The notes under the pieces are model-generated. The model saw nothing but the letters and a program-made list of their open reading frames with translations, had not been told where the DNA came from and ran no database searches. Below, piece after piece: positions 29,762 to 56,564 of a stretch of DNA of 64,000 bases; position 1 is the stretch's first letter, and every line of letters begins with the position of its first letter. Origin of the DNA: an uncultured Paracoccaceae bacterium. GTDB taxonomy: Bacteria > Pseudomonadota > Alphaproteobacteria > Rhodobacterales > Rhodobacteraceae. Made by a program: the position numbers and the translations under genes. Location of the stretch: NCBI GenBank assembly GCA_937146765.1, contig CAKZRP010000038.1, forward strand, positions 29,879 to 93,878, read 5' to 3'.

Positions 29762-31053
29762 GTCGGCAAGTCGGTCGGCTTGGGTTCTAAAAGGCGCGGG
29801 GCCGGATCACAGAGCGGATCACAGGCCGAATCCCGGTGCGGATCTTTGGCCCGCGGCCTCCTTCGGGGCTGCGGGTCACCTCTGCATGAATAGTTTTACC
29901 ATAAGATAGATTACAGGATTCAATACTCCCCAAGGGTGCGCGCTACCCCCAACTGCGACTCCTATTAGAAGCCAAAGGGTTATCTAATGAGGCGAACTGG
30001 AGCCGACAAAGAATGAACTATGAGCAGTGCGTGCGAGCCACATTCTTAGACTGGGAAAGCTGGCTGATAGCAGTGATCGCCTTGGCAGCGTTTCTCATTC
30101 TGCGCCGCTTCAGACGAACAATTCTAGCGATTGGTTCTGGCGTTGTCGGCGTCTGCCTGGCGTTGTCGTGGGCCTATTTGTTCCATGAGCTGAACTGTGT
30201 CGAACTGATCGGTTTGTAAAACACAGCAGCGCAAAGTTACTTTGGTCTGGCTTGTATCCCGCAAGGCTTTTCAGCCCTGCGATATTTGAGGTCTCCGGGC
30301 TGCTAAGCCTTGCTACCGTCAGCGCTATTGGTGACACGTCTGCTTTGCAAACCGAGTGACATTTCTACTTGGTTGCAACACGTCTGCGCAGCCCTGCTCT
30401 GTCATACTCTTTTGGGGAGAGTGACAGTGCTGAATGGCGCATCGGGTCTGTCCGGCTGTGCAAGCCCCGGGACAGTCTCCTTGGCTACAACATGATCCGA
30501 GAAGGGGCCAGTGGGTGACCGGGTGCCTTCCTGTACTTCCTTTATTTCATTATTTGAAATCTGCAAAAAAACGGACCTGCCCCCGCAGAATCCAAACCCC
30601 TTGCACCTCCAGAGATCCGGCCGCCGGATCCGTCGTATTTTAGCAATCACGACCAGGCTTTCCCCTTCCGGTGCGGCCGTCGCCTGGAAACACTTTGGCC
30701 TTTCATAATTCTCATTGAAAACAAAGATATGCCACAGTTTCGCCACAGGTTTGCACCGCTTGCGTGCTGCCGGACCGATGGGGAAGAGCCCTGTATTCCT
30801 TGGTCTTTGCCGTGAAACACGCCAATATTTTATGGCAAAACGGTGCAGGCAGCCCCCATTGGCGGGCTCTTGCCGAGCACCGGCGGACCCTCGCTTGTTT
30901 CCGAAGTTTTAAATACAACCGTAAAGGTTCCGCTAACTTCTCCCATGGTTCCGCCGCTTTTTGACCACACTGCCTAAGCATTTCTGGCTCCAGACGCCAG
31001 CTGAACGGGCTGGCAGAGAATTTCACATCCCCGAGTGAACAGGAGCGTGCACG
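29762..31053. other. Long AT-richer, mostly gene-free region (1.29 kb)
   Basis: GC drops from about 68 percent to roughly half between about 29.88 and 31.0 kb. The start has degenerate GGATCACAG-type repeats near 29804-29850. One small membrane-type ORF (30013-30219) is listed separately. Other open frames here have no family character. The last ~150 bases lead to the M10 protease gene, whose ATG at 31054 has AGGAG 8 bases upstream, so its promoter must lie here. I see no tRNA, IS end or clear attachment site, but the composition suggests acquired or regulatory DNA. Confidence 0.5.
30013..30219 (+). CDS. Possible small membrane protein
   Basis: This 68-residue ORF has two hydrophobic segments (WLIAVIALAAFLILRRF and ILAIGSGVVGVCLALSWAYLF) separated by a short Arg-rich loop, as in a two-helix hairpin. 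GGAG lies about 10 bases before the ATG. It lies alone in the AT-richer region. No family is recognised and codon evidence is thin, so it may be spurious. Confidence 0.3.
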   Translation: MNYEQCVRATFLDWESWLIAVIALAAFLILRRFRRTILAIGSGVVGVCLALSWAYLFHELNCVELIGL

Positions 31054-40445: not shown

Positions 40446-41654
40446 TCATCCGGTCTTGCCGCTGAGGGCGAGGCGGCTGGCGGTTTCCTGCATCAGCTGG
40501 AAGAACCGCGGGATGTAATAGATCCATTGCCGGTTCCTCGGCAGCGGCATCTGCACATATTGCTTCAACGTCGGCCGGAAGATGCTGCGCCACCAATTGC
40601 GCCGGGCGCGGGCAATCAGCTCCGGCCGCGCCTGCCAGTCGAACATGAATTCGCCGCCCTTCAGGGGCAGGCTGATCTTCTTTTCCAGCCGCAGATCACC
40701 CGGCAGGTTGCGGATGGCGAGGTCGAGAAAGGCCTTGCCGCGCGCCCGTTCAGGCCCGTTGTCCCAGGGCGCGGATGCCGACATCAGCGCCCTGAGTTCC
40801 AGCCCCGCCTCCACCGTGCCGCGCTGGCCCAGCCGGTCGGCGAGGGCGAGGGTGGCCTCGGGATCAAAGCGCGGTGCGGCGCAGATCGCGTCGAGATCGC
40901 TCAGCCAGTGCAGCCGCGACCAGGTGTGGCGCGCGTGATGGTGGCAGAGGTAGTTGAACAGGAAGGCCGGCGCCATGGTCTGGAAGCTCTCGCCGCCCAG
41001 GGCAAAGGTCTCGGCCTCGGCAAAGACATCCGCCACCGGGAAGATGCCGGAATGCTTGTCGAGCTTCTGTTGCAGGTCAAAGACCGTGCCCTCGGGCGCC
41101 AGCAGCGAGACGTCGCCGCTCAGCCGCAGCACCGCATCGATGTCCTGCGGGCTGGTCATCGCCCGCATCCGGGTGTCGGGGGAAATCAGCTGGTAGCCCT
41201 CGGCCAGAGCCTGGTCCACCACCCGGCGCAGGCTGCCGGGGGGCACCAGCACGTCGATGTCGCGGCTCGGGCGCAGGCCGAGGTCAGGGTAATACTGCGC
41301 GGCAAGGTTGATCCCCTTGAAGAAGATCGCCGGCACCCCGGCAGGACGCAGGCAGCGGCTCAGGAACTGGCGCTGGCTGGCCACCAGCTTCATGTTGCGC
41401 AGCGCCGTCTGGGTGGCGGCCTGATGCATCATCATCCGGATCTCCGGCGCGATCTCGGGCGGGTCGAGCCGCGCCACATGGCGCTGCATCAGCGGCAGGG
41501 AAAAATTGCGTTGCGCGCTGCGGGCAAAGCCCTCCCAATCGCCGATACGGGCGATCAGCTGCCGGGCCAGGGCGGTATCCTCGTCGCCGAGCGTGGTCTG
41601 GGCCAGAAGGATCTGCAGCCGCACCTCTGCGGTCTGGGCGGTCAAATCGACCAT
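40446..41654 (-). CDS. Nucleotidyltransferase-family protein (NTP_transf_5/PF14907 type)
   Basis: This 402-residue protein has the pol-beta-type nucleotidyltransferase signature in IFFKGINLAAQYYPDLGLRPSRDIDVLVPPGSL (K-G-x-x-L, then S-R-D-I-D as the metal-binding Asp pair). Later it has LFNYLCHHHARHTWSRLHWLSDLDAI, a histidine-rich helix seen in the family. Members are common in exopolysaccharide and lasso/other RiPP clusters; their substrate is mostly unknown. The ATG at 41654 has AGGA 7 bases upstream. It lies just past the convergent terminator and 80 bases downstream of the GT4 gene in the same direction. Confidence 0.8.
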   Translation of the reverse strand: MVDLTAQTAEVRLQILLAQTTLGDEDTALARQLIARIGDWEGFARSAQRNFSLPLMQRHVARLDPPEIAPEIRMMMHQAATQTALRNMKLVASQRQFLSRCLRPAGVPAIFFKGINLAAQYYPDLGLRPSRDIDVLVPPGSLRRVVDQALAEGYQLISPDTRMRAMTSPQDIDAVLRLSGDVSLLAPEGTVFDLQQKLDKHSGIFPVADVFAEAETFALGGESFQTMAPAFLFNYLCHHHARHTWSRLHWLSDLDAICAAPRFDPEATLALADRLGQRGTVEAGLELRALMSASAPWDNGPERARGKAFLDLAIRNLPGDLRLEKKISLPLKGGEFMFDWQARPELIARARRNWWRSIFRPTLKQYVQMPLPRNRQWIYYIPRFFQLMQETASRLALSGKTG

Positions 41655-41734
41655 GGGAACATCCTGAATTCGCGTGGGTCTGACCCGGATCCCCAAGGGA
41701 CCGCGGGCCGGTCAGCCGGCACTCCTGCGCCTGC

Positions 41735-42925
41735 CTAGCCCCCTTTGGCGGGATAGGCGGTGTGCGACGGCAGCGCTTCGGCCTGCGTCAATGAACGATG
41801 GTAGAGGTCGAGGGTCGCGGCGACCATCGCGCCGATGGAGCGCTGTCGCGCCAGATCGGCGGTGGCGGCGCAGAAGGCACGATGCAGCTCCGGCGCCCCG
41901 GCCAGCCGGGCCAGCGCCGCGCCATAGGCCTCGGCCGGTGCCTCGGCCGGCAGCACATATCCGGTGCGCCCCTCCTCCACGGTCTCCTCCGCGCCGCCCA
42001 CCGGGGCGGTCACCAGCGGCACATGCGCCTGCAGCGCCTCGAGGAAACTATAGGCCAGCGCCTCGTAGCGGCTGGTGATGCAGAGCGTGTCGAGCCCGTA
42101 GACCAGCGCCGGCGCATCGCACCAGCCGAGAAAGCGGATCGGCAGCCCCTCGGCCTGGGCGCGCACCGCCTCCATCAGCGGGCCGTCCCCCATCATCACC
42201 CCCCGGATATTGGGGGCCTGGCGGGCGGCGGCGCGGAGGGCCTCGACAAAGAGCTGCGGGTTCTTCTGATCCACCATGCGGCCGACAAAGCCGACCGCAA
42301 ACTCCTCGGGGCCGAGGCCGATCTCCGCCCGCGCCCGCGCCCGGTCGGCACCGGGCACCGGATCGGCGCCATTGGGGATGCAGGTGACCTGCCCGGGCCG
42401 CAGGCCGAGGGCGATCGCATGGGCGCGTTCGGCCTGGCTGACCGCGATGATCGGATCGCCGCGCAGCGCCAGCAGCCGCTCGATGCCGCCGTAGATCCGG
42501 TAGCCGCGGCGCGAGATCGCCGGATCCATCGTGCGCAGCGCATGGGGCGTATAGAGCCGCGCGCCGGGCAGGCGGCGCGGCAGCAGCCGGGTCAGCGCCC
42601 CGGCCTTGGAACTATGGGCATGCAGGATGTCGAAGGGCCCCCCCGCCTGCAGCAGCCGGCTCAGCGCCCTGAGCCCGGCCCAATCGTGCAGCCCGACGCT
42701 GCGCTGCAGATCGACGGTGACCTGGCGCACCCCTTCGAGCCCGAAGAGACGGGCCTTGAAACTCTCGTCCGCCCGCACCGGCGACCAGACCACGGTCACC
42801 GCATGACCGCGCGCCACAAGCCCCTCGGCCAGATCCAGCACATGGCGTCCCGAGCCGCCGCCCGAAGTCTCCAGGATCAGCGCAATCTTCAATATCCGCC
42901 CCATGGAAGCCTCTGAAAATGACAT
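41735..42925 (-). CDS. GT4-family glycosyltransferase
   Basis: This 396-residue GT-B enzyme has an N-terminal acceptor domain opening LILETSGGGSGRHVLDLAEGL (the glycine-rich loop) with DILHAHSSKAGALTRL, and a C-terminal donor domain with FVGRMVDQKNPQLFVEAL, VMMGDGPL, RFLGWCD and the E-x7-E motif in ITSRYEALAYSFLEALQAHVPLV. Family members use nucleotide sugars with retention, typically to build repeat units. Both 42925 and 42904 are credible ATG starts with purine-rich sites (GGAGAG and AGAGG). It is a cytosolic or membrane-associated enzyme with no signal peptide, oriented like the nucleotidyltransferase. Confidence 0.92.
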   Translation of the reverse strand: MSFSEASMGRILKIALILETSGGGSGRHVLDLAEGLVARGHAVTVVWSPVRADESFKARLFGLEGVRQVTVDLQRSVGLHDWAGLRALSRLLQAGGPFDILHAHSSKAGALTRLLPRRLPGARLYTPHALRTMDPAISRRGYRIYGGIERLLALRGDPIIAVSQAERAHAIALGLRPGQVTCIPNGADPVPGADRARARAEIGLGPEEFAVGFVGRMVDQKNPQLFVEALRAAARQAPNIRGVMMGDGPLMEAVRAQAEGLPIRFLGWCDAPALVYGLDTLCITSRYEALAYSFLEALQAHVPLVTAPVGGAEETVEEGRTGYVLPAEAPAEAYGAALARLAGAPELHRAFCAATADLARQRSIGAMVAATLDLYHRSLTQAEALPSHTAYPAKGG

Positions 42926-42995
42926 AAAAACAACTCTCCGGCAGGCTAGCACAGCAGCGCCCCGCCGCAAACCCTTTCCCGGCGCACCGGGGGTG

Positions 42996-46000: not shown

Positions 46001-46578
46001 AAGACATAGTTGCTGTTGTCGATATCGCGCCCGGTGACGGAGAAGACCTCGGCGCCCACATCGAACCACAATTCGGTTTCAAAGCTGCCGTCGCCATTGG
46101 GGATCAGCTCGTAGATCAGCCCCTCGCCATCCTCGGTGCCGTCGGTGCTGGCGAAATAGCGGCCGGTCTCGGTATAGTCGAAACTGTTGAACCGCTGGTT
46201 GGCGCCGGCGCTGTTGGTGGGGAAATGCGCCACTTCCGCCAGCACGATGGCCTGGCCGGAGGTGGGCAGGGTCTCGGCAATGCGATCGTCGTAATAGGAT
46301 TGCGCCTGCCCCTCGGGCAGCGCCACTTCGATGGAGACGGTGGCGGTCTGTTCGACCCCGTCAATGGTCACGGTATATTCAAATGTATCCTGACCGGTGA
46401 ATCCCTCGAAGGGTTTATAATAGGGCACCCCATCAATAATCCGGATATCCCCATTCAGGGCGGCGGAAAATTCAATTGTGCCCGCATTCAGATCCGCGGC
46501 ATCGTCATTTGCATCAAATGCAATTGGGACCCAATTGGAATTTGTCGGAACGGTGAAATTATCGTTTTGAATAGCCAA
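43066..46578 (-). CDS. PQQ-type sugar dehydrogenase fused to RTX and cadherin-like repeats
   Basis: This protein has about 1170 residues. After a short Ig-like domain (YYKPFEGFTGQDTFEYTVTI near 65), residues about 110-590 look like a soluble PQQ-dependent glucose/sorbosone dehydrogenase (GGLRGIAFHPDFETNGKFYV, LLYIAQGDGS, GKILRIDPL, VYALGFRNPHTLSF, VADVGRDNAEEIN, GGNYGWSVAEG). A short RTX stretch follows near 600-660 (DDTLYGYGGDDLLFGDQGDDVLILSEGADTVSGGTGADTF), then about four repeated Ig/cadherin-like units with the phrase SNGGEFRVFSSGVVDFRN. It is secreted, probably by type I export, without a signal peptide. A TTG at 46578 is proposed as start because GGGGGATTTTACC precedes it, like the site of the 62043 gene. 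GTG codons at 46593 and 46605 are alternatives. Confidence 0.82.
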   Translation of the reverse strand: MAIQNDNFTVPTNSNWVPIAFDANDDAADLNAGTIEFSAALNGDIRIIDGVPYYKPFEGFTGQDTFEYTVTIDGVEQTATVSIEVALPEGQAQSYYDDRIAETLPTSGQAIVLAEVAHFPTNSAGANQRFNSFDYTETGRYFASTDGTEDGEGLIYELIPNGDGSFETELWFDVGAEVFSVTGRDIDNSNYVFGGLRGIAFHPDFETNGKFYVSMMEQIPEDGSGHTYIGPVYDGEQHGDSVIVEFTVDPVTGDVIAGSYREVLRVSVPVDDHPIRQIEFNHYAEPGDEDYGLLYIAQGDGSIQSATSGGGQRNDALGKILRIDPLESEDGPYSVPASNPFVGDDTMLDEVYALGFRNPHTLSFSQDENGDVHLFVADVGRDNAEEINHVIAGGNYGWSVAEGIFSLNTNPGTLIGVQPLSDEEIDFAIANQLIFPAAFVGHFGFIEYDQEGNPVSGQVGGGQAIASGHAIRTDSVLNGMFIFGDFAKGGRFYTTDLEAMLNTTSVIPEGGSIADVSWITPAHMPILFDHDNDPTTTPLVYADILEMIDRTRSDIRFAEGPNGEMYITTKRDGTMYQVMNATADFDDVLFGTLGDDTLYGYGGDDLLFGDQGDDVLILSEGADTVSGGTGADTFVLSTAGGIDTITDFYSGFDQIDTSAFDAIGVAIQSQVSGDDILLIRGDTGETVARLLGAATAGPAGPLAMQDHFYAARLDVDAAGSEGLVLGAGSVLTNDGDYDGDVLVVSRVNGSAALVGTWVPGSAGGFFLIEADGQIRFSDPEGEVGEGVRSTVTYEITDADGFTASTTAAVDLVLEENLAPVAADDFFFVPVESHGSYTRLGALSNNTTLLANDSDPNGDPLRLITINDNGFNVSVADFPVWFEGSNGGEFRVFDTGVIDFRFDAEEAVAGTTTSFTYTIADEGELSSTATVEVWLGGYANADSYTLAEADLAAAGTGLIVVGGIGNDTDALENDFAGASVAAINGSTAALGTWVNGDNGGQFRVFASGVVQFRNLNGGVEGGETTSIEYTVTVPGVEGGPLTSTISVTVEEQALPPGAEDDSFHVGADTLAEAGSSWFRLARLNDGTFVLANDPGMEEIVSISGPGDIDGQFFAGSNGGEFRVFSSGVVDFRNQGDLLEAGESTSFTYTASNGEEEFSATVTLTVDDFLLV

Positions 46579-46615
46579 GGTAAAATCCCCCACTGAAATA
46601 AGCACAGACGGGATG

Positions 46616-46882: not shown

Positions 46883-48121
46883 TCAGGCGGCGGGTTTTGC
46901 GCCCGGCTCTTCCAGCCCCATCAGCCCATTCTGGGTGTAATTGCCATAGGCCAGGCCGAGGGTGACAAAAAGATGCCGCCAGTGAATGGAGCCGACCACG
47001 TTCATCAGAATGAAAAGCCCGCACATGATCGCAAGGATAAAGGCGTATTTCAGCCAGCCGTCGCGGCGCTCCAATGTTTTCACCAGACAGCGATAGGCGG
47101 CGGCGAAATACAGAATGGCAAAACCGAGACAGGCAAAAATGCCATTATTGAGGGCGAATACAACAAAAGTATTATGCGGCTCGATACCGAAGCGGAAGAC
47201 CACCTGGTTGGGACCAACCCCGAAGGGGTAGTCGAAGATCAGGAACAGGGCGGTGAAGATATTGTCGAAGCGCTCGCTGTCATAGGACTGCAGCGACAGC
47301 CGCTTGCTGAAGTAGCTCCCGGTCATCGCCCCGAAGATCTCATCGGCGAAGATGAACATCACCAGCCCGGCGCAGCACATCACAAGGCAGCCGGCCAGCA
47401 GGGTCGGATAGGCGGTCTTGCGGTGGTTGAGCAGCGCCATGAAGAAGATGAAGATGGTGACGATGGCGTGGATCCAGGCCCCGCGCGAGAAGGTCAGCAG
47501 CAGCCCCAGCGCGATGATCCCGGTCGCCACCAGGAACAGCATGCGCCGCCGCTCGCGCTCCACCACCGCCCAGAGCCCGCCAAGCAGCGGCAGGATCAGA
47601 TAGGGCCCCAGCACATTGGGATCCTTGAAGGTGGATTTGATCCGCGAGCGGAATTCGTCGCGAAAGAAGATGTCGCTGTTGGGAATGAGGTCGAGCCAGG
47701 CCAAAAGGCCGATCAGCGAGGTGCAGATGCCGCCGAAGATCAGCAGCAGGACCACCGCGCGAAAGGCCTGGTCGCCGTAGTGGCGCACCCAATAGGCGGT
47801 CATCAGGAAGATGATCAGCATATAGACTTCGATCACCGCCGCCCGCGCCGAGACGATGAAATACTGCTCCACCATCACCAGCGACAGGAAGGTGAACCAG
47901 ATGAACATGATGATGCCGGTCAGCTCCACCCCGCCGACCAGCCGCACCGGCTTCAGCCCGGCCAGCGCCAGGCAGGGCACCGCCAGCAGCAGCAGCAGAT
48001 CGGTGAGCGCCGGTTCGATCATCACGAAGAAGCTGGTGGCCAGCGCCAGGGTATAAAGCCGCCAGGCCAGGGCTTGCCAGCCGAGGGTGTCACGGCTGCG
48101 GGTGTAATAGGTCTCAATCAT
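46883..48121 (-). CDS. O-antigen ligase/polymerase-family membrane protein (Wzy/WaaL type)
   Basis: This 412-residue protein has about 11-12 hydrophobic helices (ALATSFFVMIEPALTDLLLLLAVPCLALAG, VLLLIFGGICTSLIGLLAWLDLIP and others). The Wzy_C signature appears as ALGLLLTFSRGAWIHAIVTIFIFFMALLN preceded by KSTFKDPNVLGPYLILPLLGGL. A large loop with FRFGIEPHNTF carries the conserved periplasmic His/Arg. It could be the polymerase for the Wzx/Wzy exopolysaccharide or a ligase; the polymerase fits the neighbouring Wzx, co-polymerase and export genes. The ATG at 48121 is chosen because hydrophobic similarity starts soon after. It is divergent from the ABC transporter gene. Confidence 0.85.
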   Translation of the reverse strand: MIETYYTRSRDTLGWQALAWRLYTLALATSFFVMIEPALTDLLLLLAVPCLALAGLKPVRLVGGVELTGIIMFIWFTFLSLVMVEQYFIVSARAAVIEVYMLIIFLMTAYWVRHYGDQAFRAVVLLLIFGGICTSLIGLLAWLDLIPNSDIFFRDEFRSRIKSTFKDPNVLGPYLILPLLGGLWAVVERERRRMLFLVATGIIALGLLLTFSRGAWIHAIVTIFIFFMALLNHRKTAYPTLLAGCLVMCCAGLVMFIFADEIFGAMTGSYFSKRLSLQSYDSERFDNIFTALFLIFDYPFGVGPNQVVFRFGIEPHNTFVVFALNNGIFACLGFAILYFAAAYRCLVKTLERRDGWLKYAFILAIMCGLFILMNVVGSIHWRHLFVTLGLAYGNYTQNGLMGLEEPGAKPAA

Positions 48122-48574
48122 AATATGTACTTCAGCAAGGGTCCGGGCGCGGCGCGTCGCGGCGACTATGCAACAGGCAGGAGGGCTGCGCACGCAAAAA
48201 CCTCACCGGCCGGGCGACAGGGCACCGGGGCGGGCCGGGCTGCCGCCTTGCTGGGCGCCCGCCGCCCCGCCGCGGCGGGCCGGGTCCCGATTTTGCCTCC
48301 CCCCTGCCCCCCCGGGCTTGCCTGTGCGACGGCAATAGGACATGGTCGGCGCAGATTTTGCGACCCGCTCACGCCCGCCCAGCTTCGGTTTCCCGGCGGG
48401 ACCCTCATTTCGCTTCACCCTGTTTAGATCTGTTTCGCCTTTGCCAATGCCCTCCCTGCCCGGTCCCTTCCCGTCTGCATCCCGCCCGTCTGAATCCCGC
48501 CTGTCCGCGTCTTGCCTGTGCACCGCCGCCCGGCGGGGCCGACAGATCGGCCCTTTCCGGATCCTGCTCCCGTC
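48122..48574. other. Divergent intergenic region (453 bases)
   Basis: It separates the Wzy-like gene (minus) and the ABC exporter (plus). The right half has degenerate ~15-base tandem units (CCCGTCTGCAT, CCCGCCCGTCTGAAT, CCCGCCTGTCCGCGT) at about 48470-48515. No gene or clear promoter box was identified. Confidence 0.45.
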
Positions 48575-50368
48575 ATGAAAAAGAAGATCACCAGTTACCT
48601 CACCTTCTGGACGGATGTGCTGACGCTGCTGCGCTATGCGGAGGGGCGGCTGACGCTCCTGGTCTTCATCGTGGCAGTGCTGGAGGCGATTTTCGGCATC
48701 GCGATGCTGTTCGCGATCAAGGTGCTGGTGGGCTCCATCGCCCAGAACGGCAGCGCCGAGGCCGATCCCTTCAACCAGCAGACGATGTTCGCGCTGGGGC
48801 TGACCCTGGCGACGCTGACCCTGGGCAAGCTGCTGGCCTCCTGCGGCAATTACCTGCGCGCCAAGCAGAGCCTCTTAGTGGCCGATGTGGTCAACGAGGA
48901 GATCCAGCGCCGCACCGTGGCCGCCGATCTCAGCTTCTTTGACAGCGCCCTCTATTATGATGCGCTGGAGCGCGCCCGCGAGGTGGGGGCGCAGCGTCCG
49001 GCCGAGGTGATCTCCAATGCGCTGACCTTCCTGCGCAGCCTGATCCTGCTGCTCGGCGCCGGGGTGGTGATCGTCGGCCTTGATTGGCGCATCCTGCCCG
49101 GGGTGGCGGTGGCGCTGGTGCTGACGCTGATCGTGCAATTGCAGACCACCAGCATGCGGTTCCAGTGGATCACCCAGCGCATCCAGCTGGAGCGCAAGGC
49201 CGCCTATCTGGACTGGCTGGTGACCTCGCAGCAATATGCCAAGGAGATCCGCCTGTTCCATCTCGGCGATACCCTGCGGCGGCAGTTCCGCGGGCTGCGC
49301 GACACCATCCGCGCCGCCCAGGTGCGCATCGAATGGGTGCGCGCCACCCGCGAGGCGATGATCGCGCTGATCGCCGGCCTCGTCTTCATCGCCTCCGCCT
49401 ATCTGGTCGCCACCTCCGCCCCCGACAATGCCAGCGCCCTCAGCGCCCTGGTGCTGCTGGTGGTGGCCTTCCAGCGGGCCGAGGCGGCGGGGCGGGCGGC
49501 GGTGCAGAGCCTGTCGCGCCTTTATGACGACCGGCTGTTCCTCGGCCAGCTGTTCCAGTTCCTGGCCATCGAGCCCAGCATCAAGGTGCCCGCCAAGGCC
49601 AGCCCCCTGCCCGAGACCCTGCGCGAGGGGCTGCGGCTGGAGAACATCCATTTCTCCTATCCGCGCAGCCATGACGCGGCGCTGAAGGGCGTGTCGCTGC
49701 ATCTGCCGCCGGGCAAGTTCGTGGCGCTGGTGGGCGGCAATGGCTCCGGCAAATCCTCGCTGATCAAGGTCATGTGCCGACTCTATGACGCCCAGGAGGG
49801 GCAGATCTCCCTCGATGGCGAGGATATCCGCAATTTCGATCCCGTCGCCTATCGCCGCCAGTTCGGGGTGGTGTTCCAGGACTTCGGCCAATATGCCTTC
49901 ACCGCCCGCGAGAACATCCACTTCGGCGATCTGGCGCAGCCTGCCGACGGGCCGCGGATGGAGGAGGCGGCAAGGCTGGCCGGGGCGCATGACATTCTCG
50001 AGGCGCTGCCGCGCGGCTATGACACCATGCTGGTGCGCCTGTTCGACGAGGGTCAGGAGCTGAGCGGCGGCCAGTGGCAGCGGGTGGCGCTGGCCCGCGC
50101 CTTTTTCCCCCAGTCGCGCTTCCTGATCCTCGACGAGCCCACCAGCGCCACCGACCCCAGCGCGGAATCCGCCCTCTTCGACCACTTCCGCGACAAGCTC
50201 GGCGACCGCTCCGCCCTGGTGATCAGCCACCGGCTCTCCACCATCCGGTTCGCGGACTATACCTATGTTCTGGACGGCGGGCGAATCGTGGAAGAAGGGC
50301 GACACGAGGATCTGGTGGCCGCCCGGGGCAGGTACTACACCATGTTTAGAGCGCAAATGCCGAATTAA
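48575..50368 (+). CDS. ABC exporter (fused TMD-NBD), likely lasso-peptide transporter
   Basis: This 597-residue half transporter has an N-terminal six-helix ABC-exporter transmembrane domain (LTLLVFIVAVLEAIFGIAMLFAIKVLVGS, LILLLGAGVVIVGLDWRI). The ATPase has a Walker A loop LVGGNGSGKSSLIKV near 385, Q-loop FGVVFQDFGQYAF, signature ELSGGQWQRVALARAF near 495 and Walker B FLILDEPTSATDP near 517. It has no C39 peptidase. In lasso clusters such an exporter (often called D) exports the mature peptide and gives self-immunity. Here it directly precedes three lasso-type precursors and the B1, B2, C and kinase genes in the same direction, which supports that role. A polysaccharide-related or other export role cannot be excluded. 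Confidence 0.85.
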   Translation: MKKKITSYLTFWTDVLTLLRYAEGRLTLLVFIVAVLEAIFGIAMLFAIKVLVGSIAQNGSAEADPFNQQTMFALGLTLATLTLGKLLASCGNYLRAKQSLLVADVVNEEIQRRTVAADLSFFDSALYYDALERAREVGAQRPAEVISNALTFLRSLILLLGAGVVIVGLDWRILPGVAVALVLTLIVQLQTTSMRFQWITQRIQLERKAAYLDWLVTSQQYAKEIRLFHLGDTLRRQFRGLRDTIRAAQVRIEWVRATREAMIALIAGLVFIASAYLVATSAPDNASALSALVLLVVAFQRAEAAGRAAVQSLSRLYDDRLFLGQLFQFLAIEPSIKVPAKASPLPETLREGLRLENIHFSYPRSHDAALKGVSLHLPPGKFVALVGGNGSGKSSLIKVMCRLYDAQEGQISLDGEDIRNFDPVAYRRQFGVVFQDFGQYAFTARENIHFGDLAQPADGPRMEEAARLAGAHDILEALPRGYDTMLVRLFDEGQELSGGQWQRVALARAFFPQSRFLILDEPTSATDPSAESALFDHFRDKLGDRSALVISHRLSTIRFADYTYVLDGGRIVEEGRHEDLVAARGRYYTMFRAQMPN

Positions 50369-50692
50369 CGGCTCTTTTCCCCCTTGATCCATCACCAATC
50401 CTTCGCCGTGAGAGCGGTGTGACGTCCAGACCACAGGCGCAGCCCCCCTCGCCCCGATCTCCGGAAGGTCTAAAATTTTCATCTAATTATTTGTTTTTAA
50501 AGGGTAATTTGATTCAACCACAGGCTGTGCCCGGAGGGTGCCAAAAAACCATTCACATGCCTGCGAGAAAATGAATTTTTCACAGAGTTTGCGTTGGAGC
50601 GAGGTTAAGTTTGTGTTAATCCTTTTGGGACCCCGTGCTTCCAATGTCACTAAAGCACGTCGGTTTCATATTTCTCGGAGGTGTGTTTACCA
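50369..50692 (+). promoter_or_regulatory. AT-rich leader region before the first lasso precursor
   Basis: These 324 bases, markedly AT-richer than the neighbours (AATTTTCATCTAATTATTTG near 50473), separate the exporter and the precursor operon. A promoter for the precursors is expected here. The ribosome site GGAGG lies 10 bases before the first precursor ATG. I cannot assign exact boxes. Confidence 0.5.
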
Positions 50693-50845
50693 ATGACTGA
50701 CAATACCGCAAAGATCGCTTACGTTGCTCCCAGCCTGTGCAAGATGGGCCGTGTCGAAACCCTCACCGCAGGCACCAGCAAAGGCGACAATACCGATGCC
50801 GTCTTCCCTGTCGGCACGCCGTTTGGGGACATCACCTTCTCCTGA
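50693..50845 (+). CDS. Lasso peptide precursor 1
   Basis: This 50-residue peptide is too short for most gene callers. The leader carries the YxxP RRE-binding motif (Y10-V-A-P13), then L15 and G19, and ends LTA, with Thr at -2 of the cleavage site as in lasso precursors. The predicted core starts Gly27 and reads GTSKGDNTD then AVFPVGTPFGDITFS (24 residues). Gly1 and Asp9 can form a nine-residue macrolactam ring; the 15-residue tail contains F-P and ends Phe-Ser. The final Ser is the expected site for the HPr-kinase-like enzyme at 54093. The ribosome site GGAGG is 10 bases upstream of the ATG. The core sequence resembles families I recall as lasso RiPP leader proteins, but that needs a search. 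Confidence 0.88.
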   Translation: MTDNTAKIAYVAPSLCKMGRVETLTAGTSKGDNTDAVFPVGTPFGDITFS

Positions 50846-50902
50846 AGGTGAGCTCCTCACGCCTATTACAGAGTAACAGAACGTAACAGAGAGGCTTATC
50901 CT

Positions 50903-51067
50903 ATGGAAAAGCAGAACTACATTACCCCTCGCCTGATCCTGCAGGGGTCTGCTGAGCAACTGACCCACGCAGCAAGCTGCCCTGGCCCGTCCCTCGACGC
51001 GACTTTCCCGAGCCGGACCCCCCGCAGCAGCCTGACCTGCACCACGGACTCCTCGTCCTTTTCCTAA
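50903..51067 (+). CDS. Lasso peptide precursor 2 (possible ring-tail disulfide)
   Basis: This 54-residue peptide has leader motif Y6-I-T-P9, L11, G15 and LTH at 20-22, giving Thr at -2 if the core starts at Ala23. The core then reads AASCPGPSLD followed by ATFPSRTPRSSLTCTTDSSSFS. With Ala23 as residue 1 the acceptor Asp32 would be at position 10; with Ala24 as residue 1 it is the usual position 9 but Thr moves to -3. Cys26 lies in the ring and Cys46 in the tail, which would allow one ring-tail disulfide (class III-like). It ends Phe-Ser. AGAGG lies about 10 bases before the ATG. Core region DATFP aligns with DAVFP of precursor 1. Confidence 0.85.
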   Translation: MEKQNYITPRLILQGSAEQLTHAASCPGPSLDATFPSRTPRSSLTCTTDSSSFS

Positions 51068-51072
51068 AAGAC

Positions 51073-51102
51073 ATGAGGAGGCTGAGCTCTCGGCCTTCTC
51101 AT
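51073..51102 (+). promoter_or_regulatory. Hairpin between precursors 2 and 3
   Basis: ATGAGGAGGCTGAG at 51073-51086 pairs with CTCGGCCTTCTCAT (51089-51102) in a ~13-bp stem with two G-T pairs, followed by TTTCC. It could stabilise or attenuate the message so that precursors exceed the enzymes. This is inference. Confidence 0.5.
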
Positions 51103-51180
51103 TTCCAGAAATGGATTAAACCAAGTCCGGCGTGTGCGGCTCTTGTCTCATGCGCATTTTAGCATTGTGAGTATACTTAA

Positions 51181-51381
51181 ATGACTGACCAGAAACCCTA
51201 TGTGTCTCCGCAACTTCTCTGCGTCGGTCGTGTTGAAGAATTGACACAGACTGGCGGCCGCAAGTCCAAACATGGTTGGGGCTGGGGCTACGGCCACGGC
51301 TGGGGCTGGGGCCACGGCGGCAAATTCGGCAAATCCAAAGGCACTGATACCAGTACGGACAGTGGCGACGCCTTTTCGTAA
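51181..51381 (+). CDS. RiPP precursor 3 with Gly/Trp/His-rich core
   Basis: This 66-residue peptide has the same leader type as its two neighbours: Y7-V-S-P10, L12/L13, G16, and ELTQ with Thr22. The following sequence has no Asp or Glu at ring positions 7-9: after TGGRKSKHG comes a run of alternating Gly with Trp, Tyr and His (residues 31-47), then KFGKSKG and an acidic tail TDTSTDSGDAFS. The first acidic residue is at 56. So a standard lasso ring is not possible, yet leader and the final Phe-Ser are conserved. It may be phosphorylated or processed as a linear or metal-binding peptide. The upstream ribosome site is weak. Confidence 0.8.
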   Translation: MTDQKPYVSPQLLCVGRVEELTQTGGRKSKHGWGWGYGHGWGWGHGGKFGKSKGTDTSTDSGDAFS

Positions 51382-51399
51382 CCCATCCATTTGTTTTGA

Positions 51400-51774
51400 A
51401 TGATCATGCCACATTCTTCTTCGGAACTTTCCTCGGCAGACAGCACCACCGCAGCGGGCATGGCCCCCGGCGGCGCTGAGCCGCACTATCTGGCCCGGGC
51501 GGATGTCGTGGCCTCCGATATCGGGGGTCACTGGGCGCTGCTCGATCTGGAAACCAGCCTCTACTACACCCTGAACGCCACCGGCGCGGAGGTCTGGAAT
51601 GCGATGCAGTCCCCGGCGCCGCTGTCGCGGCTGATCTCTGCGGTGACCACCACCTTCTCGGTGTCCGAGGACCTCTGCCGCCCCGATGTCGAGGCGCTGC
51701 TGCAGGACCTGGTCTCGGCCGGGCTGGTCACCCGGACCTCTCAGGCGGCCTCCCAGGGCAATGCGCAGGGTTAA
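51400..51774 (+). CDS. Lasso biosynthesis B1 / PqqD-like RiPP recognition protein
   Basis: This 124-residue protein has a 25-30-residue flexible N-terminus followed by a PqqD-type winged helix-turn-helix: ARADVVASDIGGHWALLDLETSLYYTLNATGAEVWNAM and then PDVEALLQDLVSAGLV. These are the canonical D-x-x-x-x-x-Y-x-L-N-x-T/x-A-x-x-(I/V)-W signatures of the PqqD superfamily. In lasso pathways B1 binds the YxxP-containing leader and delivers the precursor to the B2 protease. It lies 18 bases after precursor 3 and overlaps the start of B2 by 14 bases. Adjacent ATG codons at 51400 and 51406 are both possible starts. Confidence 0.9.
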   Translation: MIMPHSSSELSSADSTTAAGMAPGGAEPHYLARADVVASDIGGHWALLDLETSLYYTLNATGAEVWNAMQSPAPLSRLISAVTTTFSVSEDLCRPDVEALLQDLVSAGLVTRTSQAASQGNAQG

Positions 51775-52195
51775 AGCCGGGCTCCGGCGCGGCCTGTTGT
51801 TCCTGCTCTGCCTTCTGGTGGTGATCTTTGTGCGGGTGGCGCTCTACCTGACCAAATTCGCCCGCATCCGCAAATGGCTGGTGCGCCCGAATGCGCGCAA
51901 CCGCAGCAATGCGGCGCGGGCCCATGTGGTGGCGCGCAGCGTGGCGCGGGCCGCCCGTTTCGTGCCCAGGGCCACCTGCATGACACAGGCGATCTCCGGC
52001 CAGGCGGTGCTGAGCTGGTTCGGCGTGCCCACCGACCTGGTGATCGGCGCCGCCAGCGCCGCCACGCCCGAGGCCACCGAGGCCACCGATTTCCATGCCT
52101 GGCTGATCTGGCAGGACCATATCATCCTCGGCGGCGAGGAGCTGACCCGCCGCAATTTCGCCCCGCTCTCGCGGCTCTCCTCGCAGCAGACATGA
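51761..52195 (+). CDS. Lasso biosynthesis B2 transglutaminase-like leader protease
   Basis: This 144-residue protein has an N-terminal membrane-like helix (GLLFLLCLLVVIFVRVALYL, residues 11-30), and then the transglutaminase-like cysteine protease core: catalytic Cys73 in RATCMTQAISGQAVLSWFG, His112 in TDFHAWLIWQD and probably Asp119. The pattern C...H-A-W matches McjB/B2 proteins, which cut the leader after the -2 Thr region. The start at 51761 overlaps B1 by 14 bases and its stop overlaps the cyclase start as ATGA, so the three genes are translationally coupled. A longer frame runs back inside B1 and is not used. Confidence 0.9.
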   Translation: MRRVKAGLRRGLLFLLCLLVVIFVRVALYLTKFARIRKWLVRPNARNRSNAARAHVVARSVARAARFVPRATCMTQAISGQAVLSWFGVPTDLVIGAASAATPEATEATDFHAWLIWQDHIILGGEELTRRNFAPLSRLSSQQT

Positions 52196-54096
52196 CGGTG
52201 GATTTTGCCCTCCTGACCCTGCCCGACCCGGCGGATGCGGGCGAGAGCCTGCGCCGTTTCGAGCAGCTGCAGGGGCCTGCACCCCAGGCGCCGGATCCGC
52301 AGCTGCGGCTCTGGGCCAGCGACCCGGCAGCGCTGCGGCAGGCCGGATCGCTGAGCCTCTGCGGCCATGTCCGCCTCGACAATCGCGCCGATCTGCTGGC
52401 GGAACTGGCCCTGCCGCCGGAAACCCCGCTCCCGGATCTGGACCTGGTGCTGCAGCTCTGCCGCGCGCAGGGCGCCTCGGCGCTGACCCGGCTTTCGGGC
52501 AGTTTCGCCCTGGCGCTCTGGCAGGGCGACAGCCGCCAGCTGCGCGTCATCCGCGACCATTTCGGCATCCAGCCCCTCTATCTGGCGCAGCAGGGCGCGC
52601 AGATGGTGATCGCCAGCGACCTGCGCCTGGCCGCCCATCTCGACGCCCGCCCGCTGGAGCCGCGCGCCGATACGGTCTCCGCCTATCTCGCCGGTTTTGA
52701 GGAAAGCGAGACCCGCACCGCCTTTGCCGGGCTCGACCGGCTGCCGCGGGCACATCTGCTGGACTGGCAGCCCGGCGCCGATGCCGAGACCGCACGCTAC
52801 TGGCAGCTCACCCTGCCCGCGCCGATGCCGCTGGCCGAGGCCACCCCGGCGCTGCGCAGCGCCCTGCGCCGGGCCGTCGCCCTGCGCCGCGGCACCACGG
52901 CCGAGACCGGCTGCATGCTGAGCGGCGGGCTTGACTCCTCCTCCATCGCGGTGCTGGCGGCACAGGCCGATCCCGCTTCCGGAGCCCAGTCGCCCGCCGC
53001 GCCGCTGTGCACCTTCTCCTTCGTCTACCGCGAGAGCGACAGCTACGACGAGAGCCCCTTCATCGCCGAGATCAACCGCCAGATCGGCGCCGAGCCGGTG
53101 CTGATCCGGGTCGAGGGCGCCCCCGACCCGGAGGATCTGCCGCTGCTCCTGGACGAGCAGTTCGACCTCTGCCCGGCGCCTGGCCTGCTGAAGAGCCGCC
53201 GGATCTATGCCGAGGCCCGCGCCCGGGGCATGACCGCGCTGCTTGATGGCCATGGCGGCGATGAGGTGATCTCGCATGGCTACCTGCGGCTGGCGGAACT
53301 GGCGAGCCGGGGGGCCTATCTGCGGCTCTGGCACGAGATGCGCGGCGCCTCCCGCGTCTATGACCAGCCGGTGCTGGAACCCTATCTCGCCTATCTCTAC
53401 CGCCATGCGCCGCTGCACCGTCGCAGCCTGCTGCGGCGCGCGATCGGCTGGATCGGCCGTCGCATCGAGAACCGCCGCAACCTGCCCAGCCATGCGCTGG
53501 CGCTGCTCGATGCCGATTACCGCGCCGCCCAGGATCTGGACGGGCGCGAGCTGCGCGCCGCCGAGGCCTTTGCCCCCGCCTATGGAAAGCCGGACGAACG
53601 CCAGGCGCATCTGCGCACCATCGCCGCCCCGGTGATGGCCCGGGCCTTCGAGGTGCTGCACCGCAGTGCCGCCGCCCAGGGGATCGAACCGCTCTATCCC
53701 TTCTTCGACCGGGCGCTGGTCGAGCTCTGCCTGCGGGTGCCGCCCGAGGGCAAGCTGCGCGGCGGCTGGAGCCGTCGGGTGCTGCGCGAGGCGATGGAGG
53801 GCCTGCTGCCCCGGCGCATCCAGTGGCGCCCGGACAAGGCCAATTTCAACACCGAGGTCGCCAGCTTCCTGCTGGCCTATCTCGACGATCCCGCCCGCGC
53901 CCGGATGCTGGAACAGCGCCTCGCCGGCCGCGTCGACCTGGCGGTGTTCCGGGACTGGAGCGACCTGGTGCGCAACGGGCCGCCGGAGGAAAGCGCCTCC
54001 GTCGTGCAGCTTTTGTGGCAGGCCCTCTATCTTGCCGCCTGGCTGGAGCGGTTGGAGCTTTGGAACCGCCGTCAACAAGAAGGAACCCTGTGGTGA
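52192..54096 (+). CDS. Lasso cyclase (asparagine-synthetase-B-like, C protein)
   Basis: This 634-residue enzyme resembles asparagine synthetase B. It has an N-terminal Ntn-like domain (residues 1 to about 210; LCGHVRLDNRADLLAEL, LRVIRDHFGIQPLYLAQQG) that does not begin with the catalytic Cys2 (MTVDF), so it has no glutaminase activity. The synthetase domain carries the PP-loop CMLSGGLDSSSIAVL near 244, DGHGGDEVISHG near 352 and RPDKANFNTE late. In lasso biosynthesis this protein adenylates the side-chain carboxylate of Asp/Glu and forms the isopeptide ring with the new N-terminus. ATGA overlap with B2 and GTGA overlap with the kinase place it firmly in the cluster. Confidence 0.92.
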   Translation: MTVDFALLTLPDPADAGESLRRFEQLQGPAPQAPDPQLRLWASDPAALRQAGSLSLCGHVRLDNRADLLAELALPPETPLPDLDLVLQLCRAQGASALTRLSGSFALALWQGDSRQLRVIRDHFGIQPLYLAQQGAQMVIASDLRLAAHLDARPLEPRADTVSAYLAGFEESETRTAFAGLDRLPRAHLLDWQPGADAETARYWQLTLPAPMPLAEATPALRSALRRAVALRRGTTAETGCMLSGGLDSSSIAVLAAQADPASGAQSPAAPLCTFSFVYRESDSYDESPFIAEINRQIGAEPVLIRVEGAPDPEDLPLLLDEQFDLCPAPGLLKSRRIYAEARARGMTALLDGHGGDEVISHGYLRLAELASRGAYLRLWHEMRGASRVYDQPVLEPYLAYLYRHAPLHRRSLLRRAIGWIGRRIENRRNLPSHALALLDADYRAAQDLDGRELRAAEAFAPAYGKPDERQAHLRTIAAPVMARAFEVLHRSAAAQGIEPLYPFFDRALVELCLRVPPEGKLRGGWSRRVLREAMEGLLPRRIQWRPDKANFNTEVASFLLAYLDDPARARMLEQRLAGRVDLAVFRDWSDLVRNGPPEESASVVQLLWQALYLAAWLERLELWNRRQQEGTLW

Positions 54097-55019
54097 GCCA
54101 CTTCAAGTATCACGCCTTCGGCCAGGTGATCGCCTCCGAGTTTCCCATTGACGTGCTGGAGACCGCCCCGGCAGAGGCCCGGCCCACCATCCGGGTCGAA
54201 CTGGCCCAGGGCCTGCGGCAGGGCGAGCGGGCGGAGGATCCGTTCTTCGAGATCACCGAGACCCGGCAGGTCTTTGAGTGGCGCGCGGTCGGCGCCTTCG
54301 AGATCACCGATCCTGCCTGCATCCGCGTCGATCCGCGCCCCGACATCCCCTGGCGGCTGGTCAGCCAGCCACTCCTCGGCATCGTCATCTCGGTGGCGCT
54401 GGAACGGCTGGGCCTGTTCTGCCTGCATGGCGGCAGCGTCGATGTGGAGGGCGGCGCGGTGATCGTCCTCGGCGACAAGGGCGCGGGCAAGTCCACCACC
54501 GTCTCCAGCCTGCTGCGCGCCGGTCACCGGCTGCTGACCGATGATCTGGTGGCGCTCGACTGCGGCGACCACAGCGCCGCCGCCGAGGTGCAAACCGGCT
54601 TTCCCGCGGTCAAGCTCTGGCCCGATTCCGCCGGCGCCCTGGCGGGGGAGAGCGACCTCGGCACCGAGCTGATCCACCCTTCGATCACCAAGATCCAGAA
54701 GCAGATCGACCCGGCGGTGATGGCGCGCCCGACCCCGGCGCGGGCGATTTTCCTTCTGGCGCCAACCGAAGAGGGCGAGACCCGGGCCGAGCGGCTGCCG
54801 GAGACCAGGGCGCTGGAGGCGCTGCTCTATTTCGCCTTCATCGCCCGCTTCGGCAATACCTCCCTCGGGCGGGCGCATCTGGCCCTGTTCATGAAGCGCT
54901 GCTGCCATGTGGTGAAGACGACACCGGTCTATGTGCTGCACATCCGCCGCGATCTCGACCGGCTCGACGATCTCGCCGCCGTCATCCGCGCCGAAGCGCT
55001 CGCGGCCGCCCGCGCCTGA
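54093..55019 (+). CDS. HPr-kinase-like protein, likely lasso C-terminal serine kinase
   Basis: This 308-residue protein has a C-terminal HPrK/P-type fold: GLFCLHGGSVDVEGGAVIVLGDKGAGKSTTVSSLL with Walker A near 126, then RLLTDDLVALD (Asp pair near 149-150) and GFPAVKLWPDS. It lacks the N-terminal HPr-binding domain of true HPrK. Homologues in lasso clusters such as paeninodin phosphorylate the C-terminal serine of the precursor. Here all three precursors end Phe-Ser, making the assignment attractive. GTG start at 54093 overlaps the cyclase stop as GTGA, with AAGGA 8 bases upstream. That the enzyme acts on these peptides is inference until tested. Confidence 0.85.
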   Translation: MSHFKYHAFGQVIASEFPIDVLETAPAEARPTIRVELAQGLRQGERAEDPFFEITETRQVFEWRAVGAFEITDPACIRVDPRPDIPWRLVSQPLLGIVISVALERLGLFCLHGGSVDVEGGAVIVLGDKGAGKSTTVSSLLRAGHRLLTDDLVALDCGDHSAAAEVQTGFPAVKLWPDSAGALAGESDLGTELIHPSITKIQKQIDPAVMARPTPARAIFLLAPTEEGETRAERLPETRALEALLYFAFIARFGNTSLGRAHLALFMKRCCHVVKTTPVYVLHIRRDLDRLDDLAAVIRAEALAAARA

Positions 55020-55044: not shown

Positions 55045-55280
55045 ACCCCGGATCGGCACCCGGCCCCGGACCGCCGGGCCGCGGGATTTGCATCCCCTTG
55101 CAGCAGCCCGCCCCCCTGCAAGGGCAAAGCCGGGGGCGCGGGCCGGATTCTATGCTGCCCCAAAGGGCGATTGTCTCTATAGTGAGGGCAGGCGGCCCGT
55201 GTCGCGCCCCGGGGCACCGGCCCCCGGAAGCGGTGCGGGGCGTGTTCAGCCCTATTGGTTTGTGCTTTACTGGATCCGAC

Positions 55281-56564
55281 ATGACACTGAAGACCTTTTG
55301 CCGCCCCGCGTTCCTCCTGCCCGGGTCCCTGCTCGCCGCGCTGATCGGGGCCTGCCTCTGCCTCGTCTCTCCTCCCGCCGTTTCGGCGCAAACCGCCCAG
55401 CCCGGCTCCGAGGTGCGCGACTACCTGCTGCAGCCGGGCGACGAGCTGCGCCTCTCCATGCCCGGCATCTCCAGCCAGACCTGGGAGGCGGTGATCGACA
55501 TCACCGGCGATGTCCGTTTTCCCTTCCTCGGCCAGCAGAGGGCGGCCGGCCTCACCCTGTCGGAGCTGAACACCCAGATGGAGATCGCCGCCACCGGGCT
55601 TGAGGTGCAGGTCTTTGATGGCGGCGAGAAGAGCGCCGTGGTGCTCTCGGGCGAGGAGATCTACATGCAGGTCACCCGCTACCGGCCGGTCACCGTGATC
55701 GGCGATATCTCGCAGCCCGGCAGCATCGAATTTGTCCCCGGCATGACGGTGCGGGCGCTGCTCGGCCAGGCCGGCGGGGCCCAATTGGCAGAGCTGGCCG
55801 ATGTGCGCATCCCCGCCGATGCCACCGTGCGCCTGCAATCCGCCCTGCAGACCCAGAAATGGATGCGGGCGCAGATCCTGCGCAGCGACATCCTGCTCGA
55901 GGCCCCGCTCGAAGAGGCGGCCGTGGCGGCGGAGGCGGCCGCCCAGCTGCGCGACTACCTCGGCGAGACCGAGGGCAAGGCGGTGATCGCCGAGATCGAG
56001 ATCGCCCTGCGCGAGCGGCAATACCAGCGCGCCGACCTCAACGAGCGCATCAATCTGACCACCAACCGGGTCGACAGCCTCGACCGCGCCTATGAGAATT
56101 ACGAGGAGGCCTCGGTCTCCGAGGAAGACCGGCTGCAGCGGATGCTGGTGATGGGCGACAAGGGGCTGGTGACCGCCGACCGGGTCAGCGAGGCGCGCAA
56201 TTCGGCGCTCGCCGCCTCCACCCGACTGCTCACCGTCGGCTCCGACATCTACGAGGCCAAGGCCGAGCTGCAGCGCCTGAAGGAAGAGCTGGCGCGGCTG
56301 GATGACAGTTTCCACTCCGGGGTGCTGAACGACAAGCGGCGGTTCTCGCAGGAACTGTCGGAGGTGACCGCCCAGGTCGACAGCCTGCGGCTGCTGCTGC
56401 TGTCGGAAGGCAGCAGCCAGGAGGAGGCCCCGGTGACCCGCACCGAGATCCTCGTGCACCGCGGCATCGGCGACCGGGAGGTCACCGCCCCGGTGCGCCC
56501 TGGCGATCTGGTCTATCCCGGCGATGTGGTGGAAGTGATCCTGCGCATCCCGGATTCGAACTGA
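55281..56564 (+). CDS. Polysaccharide export protein (ExoF/Wza-like)
   Basis: This 427-residue protein has a signal peptide (CRPAFLLPGSLLAALIGACLCLVSPPAVSAQT, residues 7-38). Next comes a Poly_export domain (YLLQPGDELRLSMPGI, ITGDVRFPFLGQQRAAGLTLSEL) and an SLBB-like segment (VTVIGDISQPGSIEFVPGMTVRALLGQAGG). A long central coiled coil follows (about 205-370; LREQYQ-type heptads such as ERQYQRADLNERINLTTNRVDSLDRAYENYEE), then a C-terminal VTAPVRPGDLVYPGDVVEVIL. This layout is that of rhizobial ExoF, the outer-membrane-associated partner of the ExoP co-polymerase. It is the natural export partner of the protein at 38285. A frame extended upstream to 55098 is not supported. Confidence 0.88.
   Translation: MTLKTFCRPAFLLPGSLLAALIGACLCLVSPPAVSAQTAQPGSEVRDYLLQPGDELRLSMPGISSQTWEAVIDITGDVRFPFLGQQRAAGLTLSELNTQMEIAATGLEVQVFDGGEKSAVVLSGEEIYMQVTRYRPVTVIGDISQPGSIEFVPGMTVRALLGQAGGAQLAELADVRIPADATVRLQSALQTQKWMRAQILRSDILLEAPLEEAAVAAEAAAQLRDYLGETEGKAVIAEIEIALRERQYQRADLNERINLTTNRVDSLDRAYENYEEASVSEEDRLQRMLVMGDKGLVTADRVSEARNSALAASTRLLTVGSDIYEAKAELQRLKEELARLDDSFHSGVLNDKRRFSQELSEVTAQVDSLRLLLLSEGSSQEEAPVTRTEILVHRGIGDREVTAPVRPGDLVYPGDVVEVILRIPDSN

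Follow-up and report, generated by a model that had tools for sequence, protein, structure and literature searches.

Lasso peptides have been described with rings of seven to nine residues (PMC9266682; PMC10368454), nine being the largest among known stable rings (PMC12427821), and class III members add a disulfide between ring and tail (PMC12427821). One sub-type, exemplified by paeninodin (PadeA/B1/B2/C/K), ThcoK and SyanK, combines separate B1 and B2 proteins, a macrolactam cyclase (C), a kinase with a His-Lys-Asp-Asp set and a precursor ending in Ser; PadeK, ThcoK, SyanK and PsmK are reported to target that C-terminal Ser, and for pseudomycoidin the annotated nucleotidyltransferase PsmN is reported to add one or two hexoses onto the phosphoserine (PMC9266682). 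Two further comparisons are the caulosegnins, in which one enzyme set serves three precursors (PMC13352647), and the linear polyphosphorylated peptides (LPPs) of Bacilli, whose product is thought to be linear (PMC13381572); comparisons here and below are with the excerpted text of the cited papers. Against this background we describe a split lasso-peptide cluster at positions 48575–55019, wholly on the forward strand, of a 64,000-nucleotide stretch (the window; contig CAKZRP010000038.1, positions 29,879 to 93,878) from an uncultured Paracoccaceae bacterium. The locus is almost certainly a phosphorylated-type lasso cluster, set in an exopolysaccharide locus, in which a single set of B1, B2, C and kinase (K) would probably act on three precursors (A1, A2 and A3) to give three kinds of product. 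Clusters of this kind are already known; the predicted combination of products is new.

The open reading frames and DNA of the window give the order ABC (ATP-binding cassette) exporter, A1, A2, A3, B1, B2, C, K, with overlaps of 14 bases (B1/B2), ATGA (B2/C) and GTGA (C/K). A first-pass annotation, made from the letters of the stretch, had named these overlaps together with an ABC exporter, three frames with YxxP leaders, a PqqD-like B1, a B2, an AsnB-like C and an HPrK-like gene, and all were found in place by open reading frame, Pfam and NCBIfam analysis. The three precursors share a leader with Y-x-x-P (YxxPxL) and a Thr 12 residues beyond the Pro, and all terminate in Phe-Ser; core positions are numbered from two residues past that Thr. 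They part company in the placement of the first acid. A1 (leader YVAPSL...LTA, Thr at −2) has Asp9, inside the span of Asp or Glu at 7–9 that marks lasso precursors, and its relatives have Asp9 cores of like form ending in FS. A2 has Asp10 in all three of its members (the window, Tritonibacter horizontis and P0126, drawn from four candidates, counting Thr as −2), and Cys4 and Cys24 are kept in each. A3 has no early acid: its first acid falls at position 33 in the window, 23 in T. horizontis and 21 in P0123, a near copy of the T. horizontis protein, thus outside positions 7–9 in all three members (from eight candidates in a profile search of a large protein collection). Each A3 nonetheless retains a lasso leader and a DAFS end, and the cores are 63–69% Gly, Lys, Arg, His and Trp with a net charge of +3 to +5. 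From Asp9, Asp10 and the missing early acid, we infer that three products probably come from the one enzyme set: a standard lasso peptide, a lasso peptide with a ten-residue ring and a linear phosphopeptide. The lasso assignment of the first-pass annotation stands for B1, B2, C and A1, and does not extend to three equivalent precursors. Pairwise codon comparison with T. horizontis gave dN/dS of 0.09/0.75 for A1, 0.19/3.7 for A2 (dS saturated) and 0.39/1.6 for A3; all three are under selection as proteins, and this codon-level conservation led us to reject the idea that the small frames are chance open reading frames. Nor are such genes always missed by ordinary gene calling, as had been expected: protein collections include the A2 and A3 peptides of T. 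horizontis, labelled 'hypothetical protein'.

To place these cores in a wider group, 82 fetched loci and the window were scanned with a simple leader pattern, giving 90 hits and 72 unique cores in 76 loci plus the window (none in 6 loci; three chance hits removed by hand). Counting from position 7 onwards, the first acid lies at 7, 8 or 9 in 59 of the 72 cores, position 9 accounting for 49, and 59 of the 72 end in Ser; A1 matches this pattern in full. Precursors with Asp9 and FS ends were also present, outside the pattern hits, in L004, L007 and L078, and the leader pattern found no precursors in L068, L071 and L081. The 13 cores without an acid at 7–9 comprise four Tritonibacter A2 and A3 cores and nine from acidobacterial, cyanobacterial and Chloroflexi loci (L062, L063, L064, L069, L074 and L083), the latter with an acid at 10–15 and an end other than Ser, so that departures from the rule are not unique to the genus. 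As a separate observation, five of these acidobacterial and cyanobacterial loci (L062, L064, L069, L074 and L083) have YxxP leaders, a first acid after position 7 at 12–15, often within GxGD, and no terminal Ser; they may be lasso-like clusters with a different product.

The enzymes of the window include the three parts by which a lasso cluster is recognized, namely a leader-recognition protein (RRE; B1), a transglutaminase-like peptidase (B2) and an AsnB-like cyclase (C). The first-pass annotation had tied its assignment to these proteins matching their family profiles, and matches were obtained for all three, above the cut-offs for B1 and B2 and below that of NF033535 for C (Table 1). B1 is the sole PqqD match in the genome at an E value of 0.01 or better. 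In an alignment of 33 fetched loci and the window, Cys73 and His112 of B2 are invariant in 33 of 33 sequences and the SGGxDS motif of C in 34 of 34; B2 had no match to solved structures at E 0.1. The glutaminase half of AsnB depends on a Cys directly after the start Met. C has a different residue there, and its glutaminase half therefore cannot work as in AsnB. We rejected the view of C as a plain asparagine synthetase for this reason and because many named Mesorhizobium relatives (33–36%) are annotated as lasso cyclases; its nearest named relative, P0002 (73%, Salipiger sp. PrR002), is annotated merely 'asparagine synthase-related protein'.

For K, His112, Gly132-Lys133-Ser134 and Asp150-Asp151 are invariant in 34 of 34 aligned sequences, and the motif spacing H-x14-G-x2-G-x-G-K-S-x15-D-D, counted by hand, equals that of the BsfK positions H148, G163, G166, G168, K169, S170, D186 and D187, BsfK itself acting on Ser3 and not on a C-terminal Ser (PMC10368454). 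K resembles 14 kinases of related loci at 29–80% and matches HprK sequences of solved structures (6.5e-7); its structural model (mean pLDDT 88) retrieved phosphoenolpyruvate carboxykinases first among Protein Data Bank entries, with HprK structures from rank 31. Phosphoenolpyruvate carboxykinases form the superfamily to which HprK belongs. Both marks of the paeninodin type are present, the kinase motif H...GxxGxGKS...DD and the C-terminal precursor Ser. Because all three precursors end in Phe-Ser and K carries the published motif, the cluster is almost certainly of the phosphorylated (paeninodin/pseudomycoidin) lasso type, a consequence not drawn when the kinase was listed at first pass. Compared with paeninodin, the window has three unlike precursors, of which A2 has an acid at position 10 and a Cys pair and A3 lacks a ring acid, and its host is alphaproteobacterial.

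A possible tail-tailoring pair lies outside the region first annotated: an NTP_transf_5 nucleotidyltransferase and a GT4 glycosyltransferase, both on the strand opposite to the cluster, the former ~7 kb from the exporter. Neighbours of related clusters were counted in 45 loci (46 fetched loci chosen, all with a match to K; the genome of the window excluded), with Mesorhizobium thinned to three loci plus M. microcysteis (4 of the 45) and L063, L068, L071, L079 and L081 excluded. Also dropped were G440 and G445 (no cyclase at 1e-60), the second cyclases of G437 and G439, and G221, the same genome as G418; Marivita was counted twice, its second cluster entering without a kinase check, and the counts exclude NTP_transf_5 rows with weak scores as well as a single doubled Poly_export domain. 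In 42 of the 45 loci an NTP_transf_5 gene lies no further than 25 kb from the cyclase, against 0.7 expected under uniform placement, and in one lasso locus (L006) relatives of the nucleotidyltransferase (53%) and the GT4 protein (57%) adjoin, ~3–6 kb past the kinase. The NTP_transf_5 protein of the window thus probably belongs to the lasso cluster. Pseudomycoidin likewise has a kinase and a nucleotidyltransferase; in the window the latter is distant, on the opposite strand and beside a GT4 gene, and it is a candidate counterpart of PsmN.

These observations suggest the following scheme. B1 would bind the YxxP leader and present each precursor, K would phosphorylate the C-terminal Ser, and B2 would cleave one residue beyond the conserved Thr, so that this residue ends up at −2. 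C would activate the acid and close a nine-residue ring in A1 and a ten-residue ring in A2, the latter further fastened by a predicted Cys4–Cys24 disulfide from ring to tail, whereas A3, with no acid on which C could act, would be released as a basic phosphopeptide in linear form. All three would be exported by the ABC protein, and the phosphoserine would receive a nucleotide or sugars from the NTP_transf_5 protein, perhaps together with the adjoining glycosyltransferase, in the manner reported for PsmN. The neutral monoisotopic masses calculated for these predicted products are 2411.128 Da for the A1 lactam (2491.094 Da with one phosphate), 3215.450 Da for the A2 lactam (3213.434 Da with the disulfide; 3295.416 Da for the lactam with one phosphate) and 4481.050 Da for linear A3 (4561.016 Da with one phosphate). 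The predicted disulfide of A2 recalls class III lasso peptides, of which BI-32169 is one, and A2 would differ from them in its ten-residue ring and phosphorylated tail. The caulosegnins, also products of one enzyme set, are all lasso peptides with rings of eight or nine residues (PMC13352647); here one precursor is predicted to have a ring of ten and one none. The LPPs share with the window a YxxP leader, an RRE, an HprK-like kinase, an NTP transferase, an MsbA-like exporter and proximity to capsular loci (PMC13381572). They differ in having their own RRE, an SpI-like peptidase and the leader YxxPxVLxHQxIxFETxxS, whereas A3 has the lasso-type leader YVSPQLLCVGRVEELTQ and would use the single RRE and the B2 of the lasso cluster. 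The genome gave no match to the archaeal-type SpI model TIGR02228 at E 0.1 or better; with this, the lasso-type leader and only one PqqD match in the genome, A3 as an LPP proper was rejected.

Several points weigh against this scheme. Ring size, threading, disulfide, phosphorylation and the linearity of A3 are all predictions. C falls below the cut-off of NF033535, its top NCBIfam model, and K below that of every model it matched; the NCBIfam leader models are likewise under their cut-offs (lasso_cyano, 15.4 bits for A1 and 18 for A3 against 33; lasso_leader_L3, 14.9 bits for A3 against 19), and A2 matched none of the NCBIfam lasso precursor models. The ~7 kb gap to the exporter means that membership of the nucleotidyltransferase is argued from co-occurrence, the nine other cores without an acid at 7–9 indicate that the position rule is loose in the wider group, and the members of A2 and A3 were drawn from few, close genomes. 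For A2 we lean towards a ten-residue ring. The acid falls outside positions 7–9 if the cut leaves Thr at −2 and inside them if the cut is one residue later, and A2 could then be an ordinary nine-residue-ring precursor with Thr at −3 and a core opening ASCPGPSLD (window) or ASCPDTYLD (T. horizontis). Such a cut would yield Ala1...Asp9, with Ala at that site in all three members; seven to nine are the only ring sizes named in the excerpts of the lasso literature cited here, and Thr at −2 is not universal, Ile(−2) having been reported (PMC10368454). We nevertheless hold the later cut to be rather unlikely, given that the Thr lies 12 residues past the Pro in A1–A3, as it does in related precursors with Asp9, whose Thr is at −2, and that the same source calls Thr(−2) conserved despite the Ile exception. 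Moreover, Asp9 homologues from Porphyrobacter (L045) and Aurantiacibacter (L052) carry the same Cys pair, with a Cys at core position 4 that A2 matches only under the −2 cut. Ring and loop of A2 are in register with these homologues except for one extra residue between Cys-Pro and Asp, which supports, without proving, a ring enlarged by one over a shifted cut. If the ring does have ten residues, the range of 7–9 in the papers cited is too narrow and A2-like precursors may escape genome mining. Neither a ten-residue ring nor this locus appeared in the titles and abstract beginnings listed for literature on rings above nine, polysaccharide links and the genus, a coverage with most subscription journals outside it. 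For A3, a linear product seems to us the better-founded expectation. Two other fates were considered. A3 might stay unsecreted, as a decoy or regulator whose leader occupies B1, or be a lasso precursor in decay, its ring acid already gone; it is rare (the protein collection yielded three members, and of 18 genomes in the genus 2 matched strongly and two more in part, at E 0.01–0.04), and its restriction to two lineages, a further point against our scheme, would allow for decay. Its maintenance in two species with dN/dS ~0.24, a DAFS end that would be superfluous if leader binding were its sole role and a core composition held in all three members speak otherwise, and we judge this fate unlikely. 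That C closes a far larger ring on a distant Asp of A3, or that the product is branched-cyclic, is very improbable: acids do occur near the C-terminus, and some cyanobacterial and acidobacterial precursors also have their first acid at 12–15, but the position of the first acid shifts among A3 members and no such large ring appears in the excerpts of the lasso literature cited. Should A3 be released uncyclised, a lasso pathway would also yield linear phosphopeptides, a link to the LPPs newly described in Bacilli.

The surroundings call for similar weighing. Wzy_C, Wzz/AAA, flippase, sugar transferase and Poly_export proteins lie around the lasso locus, and the Wzy/WaaL and ExoF-like flanks named at first pass were confirmed (Table 1). 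Their description as an unusual setting was not borne out: at least 21 of the 45 related loci have Poly_export no more than 25 kb from the cyclase, where random placement would give 1.5, and for Bacilli a 2026 report describes frequent co-localisation of capsular polysaccharide loci with paeninodin-like lasso clusters and with LPP clusters, whose roles it calls unknown (PMC13381572). We therefore rejected the placement as an oddity of this genome. Among the matches listed, and with phyla taken from record titles and membership of the Alphaproteobacteria from the genus, Poly_export is near the cyclase in 20 of the 29 loci from Alphaproteobacteria, in none of the 11 from cyanobacteria or the 4 from acidobacteria, and in 1 of 1 other; many loci without it are on short contigs or have Poly_export on a different contig, and L031 and L080, outside the count of at least 21, have an export-protein relative in their flanks. 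The genera concerned are Tritonibacter, Roseobacter, Marivita, Mesorhizobium, Caulobacter, Brevundimonas, Sphingomonas, Rhizorhabdus, Porphyrobacter, Aurantiacibacter, Salinarimonas, Thioclava and others. Related loci inherit their neighbours, and the 45 are therefore not independent events. The association hints at, but does not prove, a site of action of the products at or within the exopolysaccharide matrix. Alternatively, exopolysaccharide and lasso genes may be neighbours through a shared habit of residing in variable islands, with no functional link, a view that we find somewhat doubtful yet well within reach. It agrees with the patchiness of the cyclase (3 of 18 genomes of the genus) and with the lack of any listed Poly_export within 25 kb in each of the 11 cyanobacterial and 4 acidobacterial loci; the frequency in the related loci, concentrated in the alphaproteobacterial ones, and the independent report from Bacilli tell against it. 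Islands are not randomly placed, and the Poly_export excess therefore does not settle the question. A bolder extension of the three-product scheme, speculative and in our estimation unlikely, is that one lasso machine supplies the polysaccharide coat with three topologies: a nine-residue ring, a first, disulfide-locked ten-residue ring and an uncyclised, basic phosphopeptide rich in Gly, Lys, His and Trp, all tagged at Ser, glycosylated and anchored in, or organising, the exopolysaccharide. If true, lasso and LPP-like linear peptides would arise in one pathway that relies on a single RRE. The repeated occurrence in Alphaproteobacteria of lasso loci with a kinase next to polysaccharide export genes, together with the report from Bacilli, offers a testable lead on the role of the sub-type as a whole.

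Table 1 Features of the lasso-peptide cluster and its surroundings, in positions of the window
Feature	Position	Strand	Evidence or remark
ABC exporter (D)	48575..50368	+	ABC_tran 113 bits; 89% identity to T. horizontis locus L005, order conserved
Precursor A1, 50 aa	50693..50845	+	Predicted core GTSKGDNTDAVFPVGTPFGDITFS, predicted ring Gly1–Asp9
Precursor A2, 54 aa	50903..51067	+	Predicted core AASCPGPSLDATFPSRTPRSSLTCTTDSSSFS, acid at position 10, Cys4/Cys24
RNA hairpin, A2–A3 gap	51073..51102	+	13-pair stem, without U-tract
Precursor A3, 66 aa	51181..51381	+	Lasso-type leader; no acid before position 33; DAFS end
B1, PqqD-like leader-recognition protein (RRE)	51400..51774	+	PF05402 59.6 bits, cut-off 23.4
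B2, leader peptidase	51761..52195	+	NF033537 lasso_biosyn_B2 56.7 bits, cut-off 33; Transglut_core3 58 bits, cut-off 26
C, AsnB-like lasso cyclase	52192..54096	+	PF00733 Asn_synthase 168.5 bits; NF033535 327 bits, cut-off 525
K, HprK-like kinase, predicted C-terminal Ser phosphorylation	54093..55019	+	Hpr_kinase_C 32.8 bits, cut-off 33.3
Nucleotidyltransferase NTP_transf_5, probable tail-tailoring enzyme	40446..41696	-	PF14907 137 bits
GT4 glycosyltransferase, possible tail-tailoring enzyme	41735..42970	-	Glyco_transf_4 90.4 bits
Wzy/WaaL-like polymerase or ligase, flank	46883..48193	-	Wzy_C 36.6 bits
ExoF/Wza-like polysaccharide export protein, flank	55098..56564	+	Poly_export 39.9 bits, SLBB 29.1 bits

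The host is probably a marine member of Tritonibacter. T. horizontis has the same order from Wzy through the ABC exporter, A1, A2, A3, B1, B2, C and K to the export gene, its enzymes and flanks being 62–89% identical to those of the window; the cyclases of these two Tritonibacter loci (the window and L005) share 62% identity, and the exporter, kinase, B1 and B2 are higher, at 76–89%. Within the genus, the 3 of 18 genomes with a cyclase (E 1e-40 or better) include that of the window (4.7 Mb), as do the 4 of 394 genomes of the family with one at E 1e-60. Queries with C against genome contigs (52 stretches) and with A3 against viral contigs (12 stretches) returned no relative, and plasmid searches with C (178 records) and with the export protein (17 records) gave nothing but matches below 60%. 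A 160 kb plasmid of Sulfitobacter indolifex (NZ_CP084955.1) carries genes for a cyclase relative (37%) and a polysaccharide export protein, at 30913–32553 and 45142–46293, with ~13 kb between them.

Other genes near the locus include a serralysin-like RTX metalloprotease at 57622–59628 (+; NF035945 230 bits, cut-off 500) and, further upstream at 31054–32928 (+), a protein whose start resembles that of the metalloprotease. Between the glycosyltransferase and Wzy, a 1179-residue protein at 43066–46605 (−) has weak, sub-cut-off matches to glucose/sorbosone dehydrogenase, serralysin/RTX and tandem-95 models. A promoter and terminator scan of 50300–51450 gave no signal above chance. The RNA stem between A2 and A3 folds in both the window (z −4.3) and T. 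horizontis (z −3.3), with differing stem bases, and may govern the proportion of precursor mRNA to enzyme mRNA.

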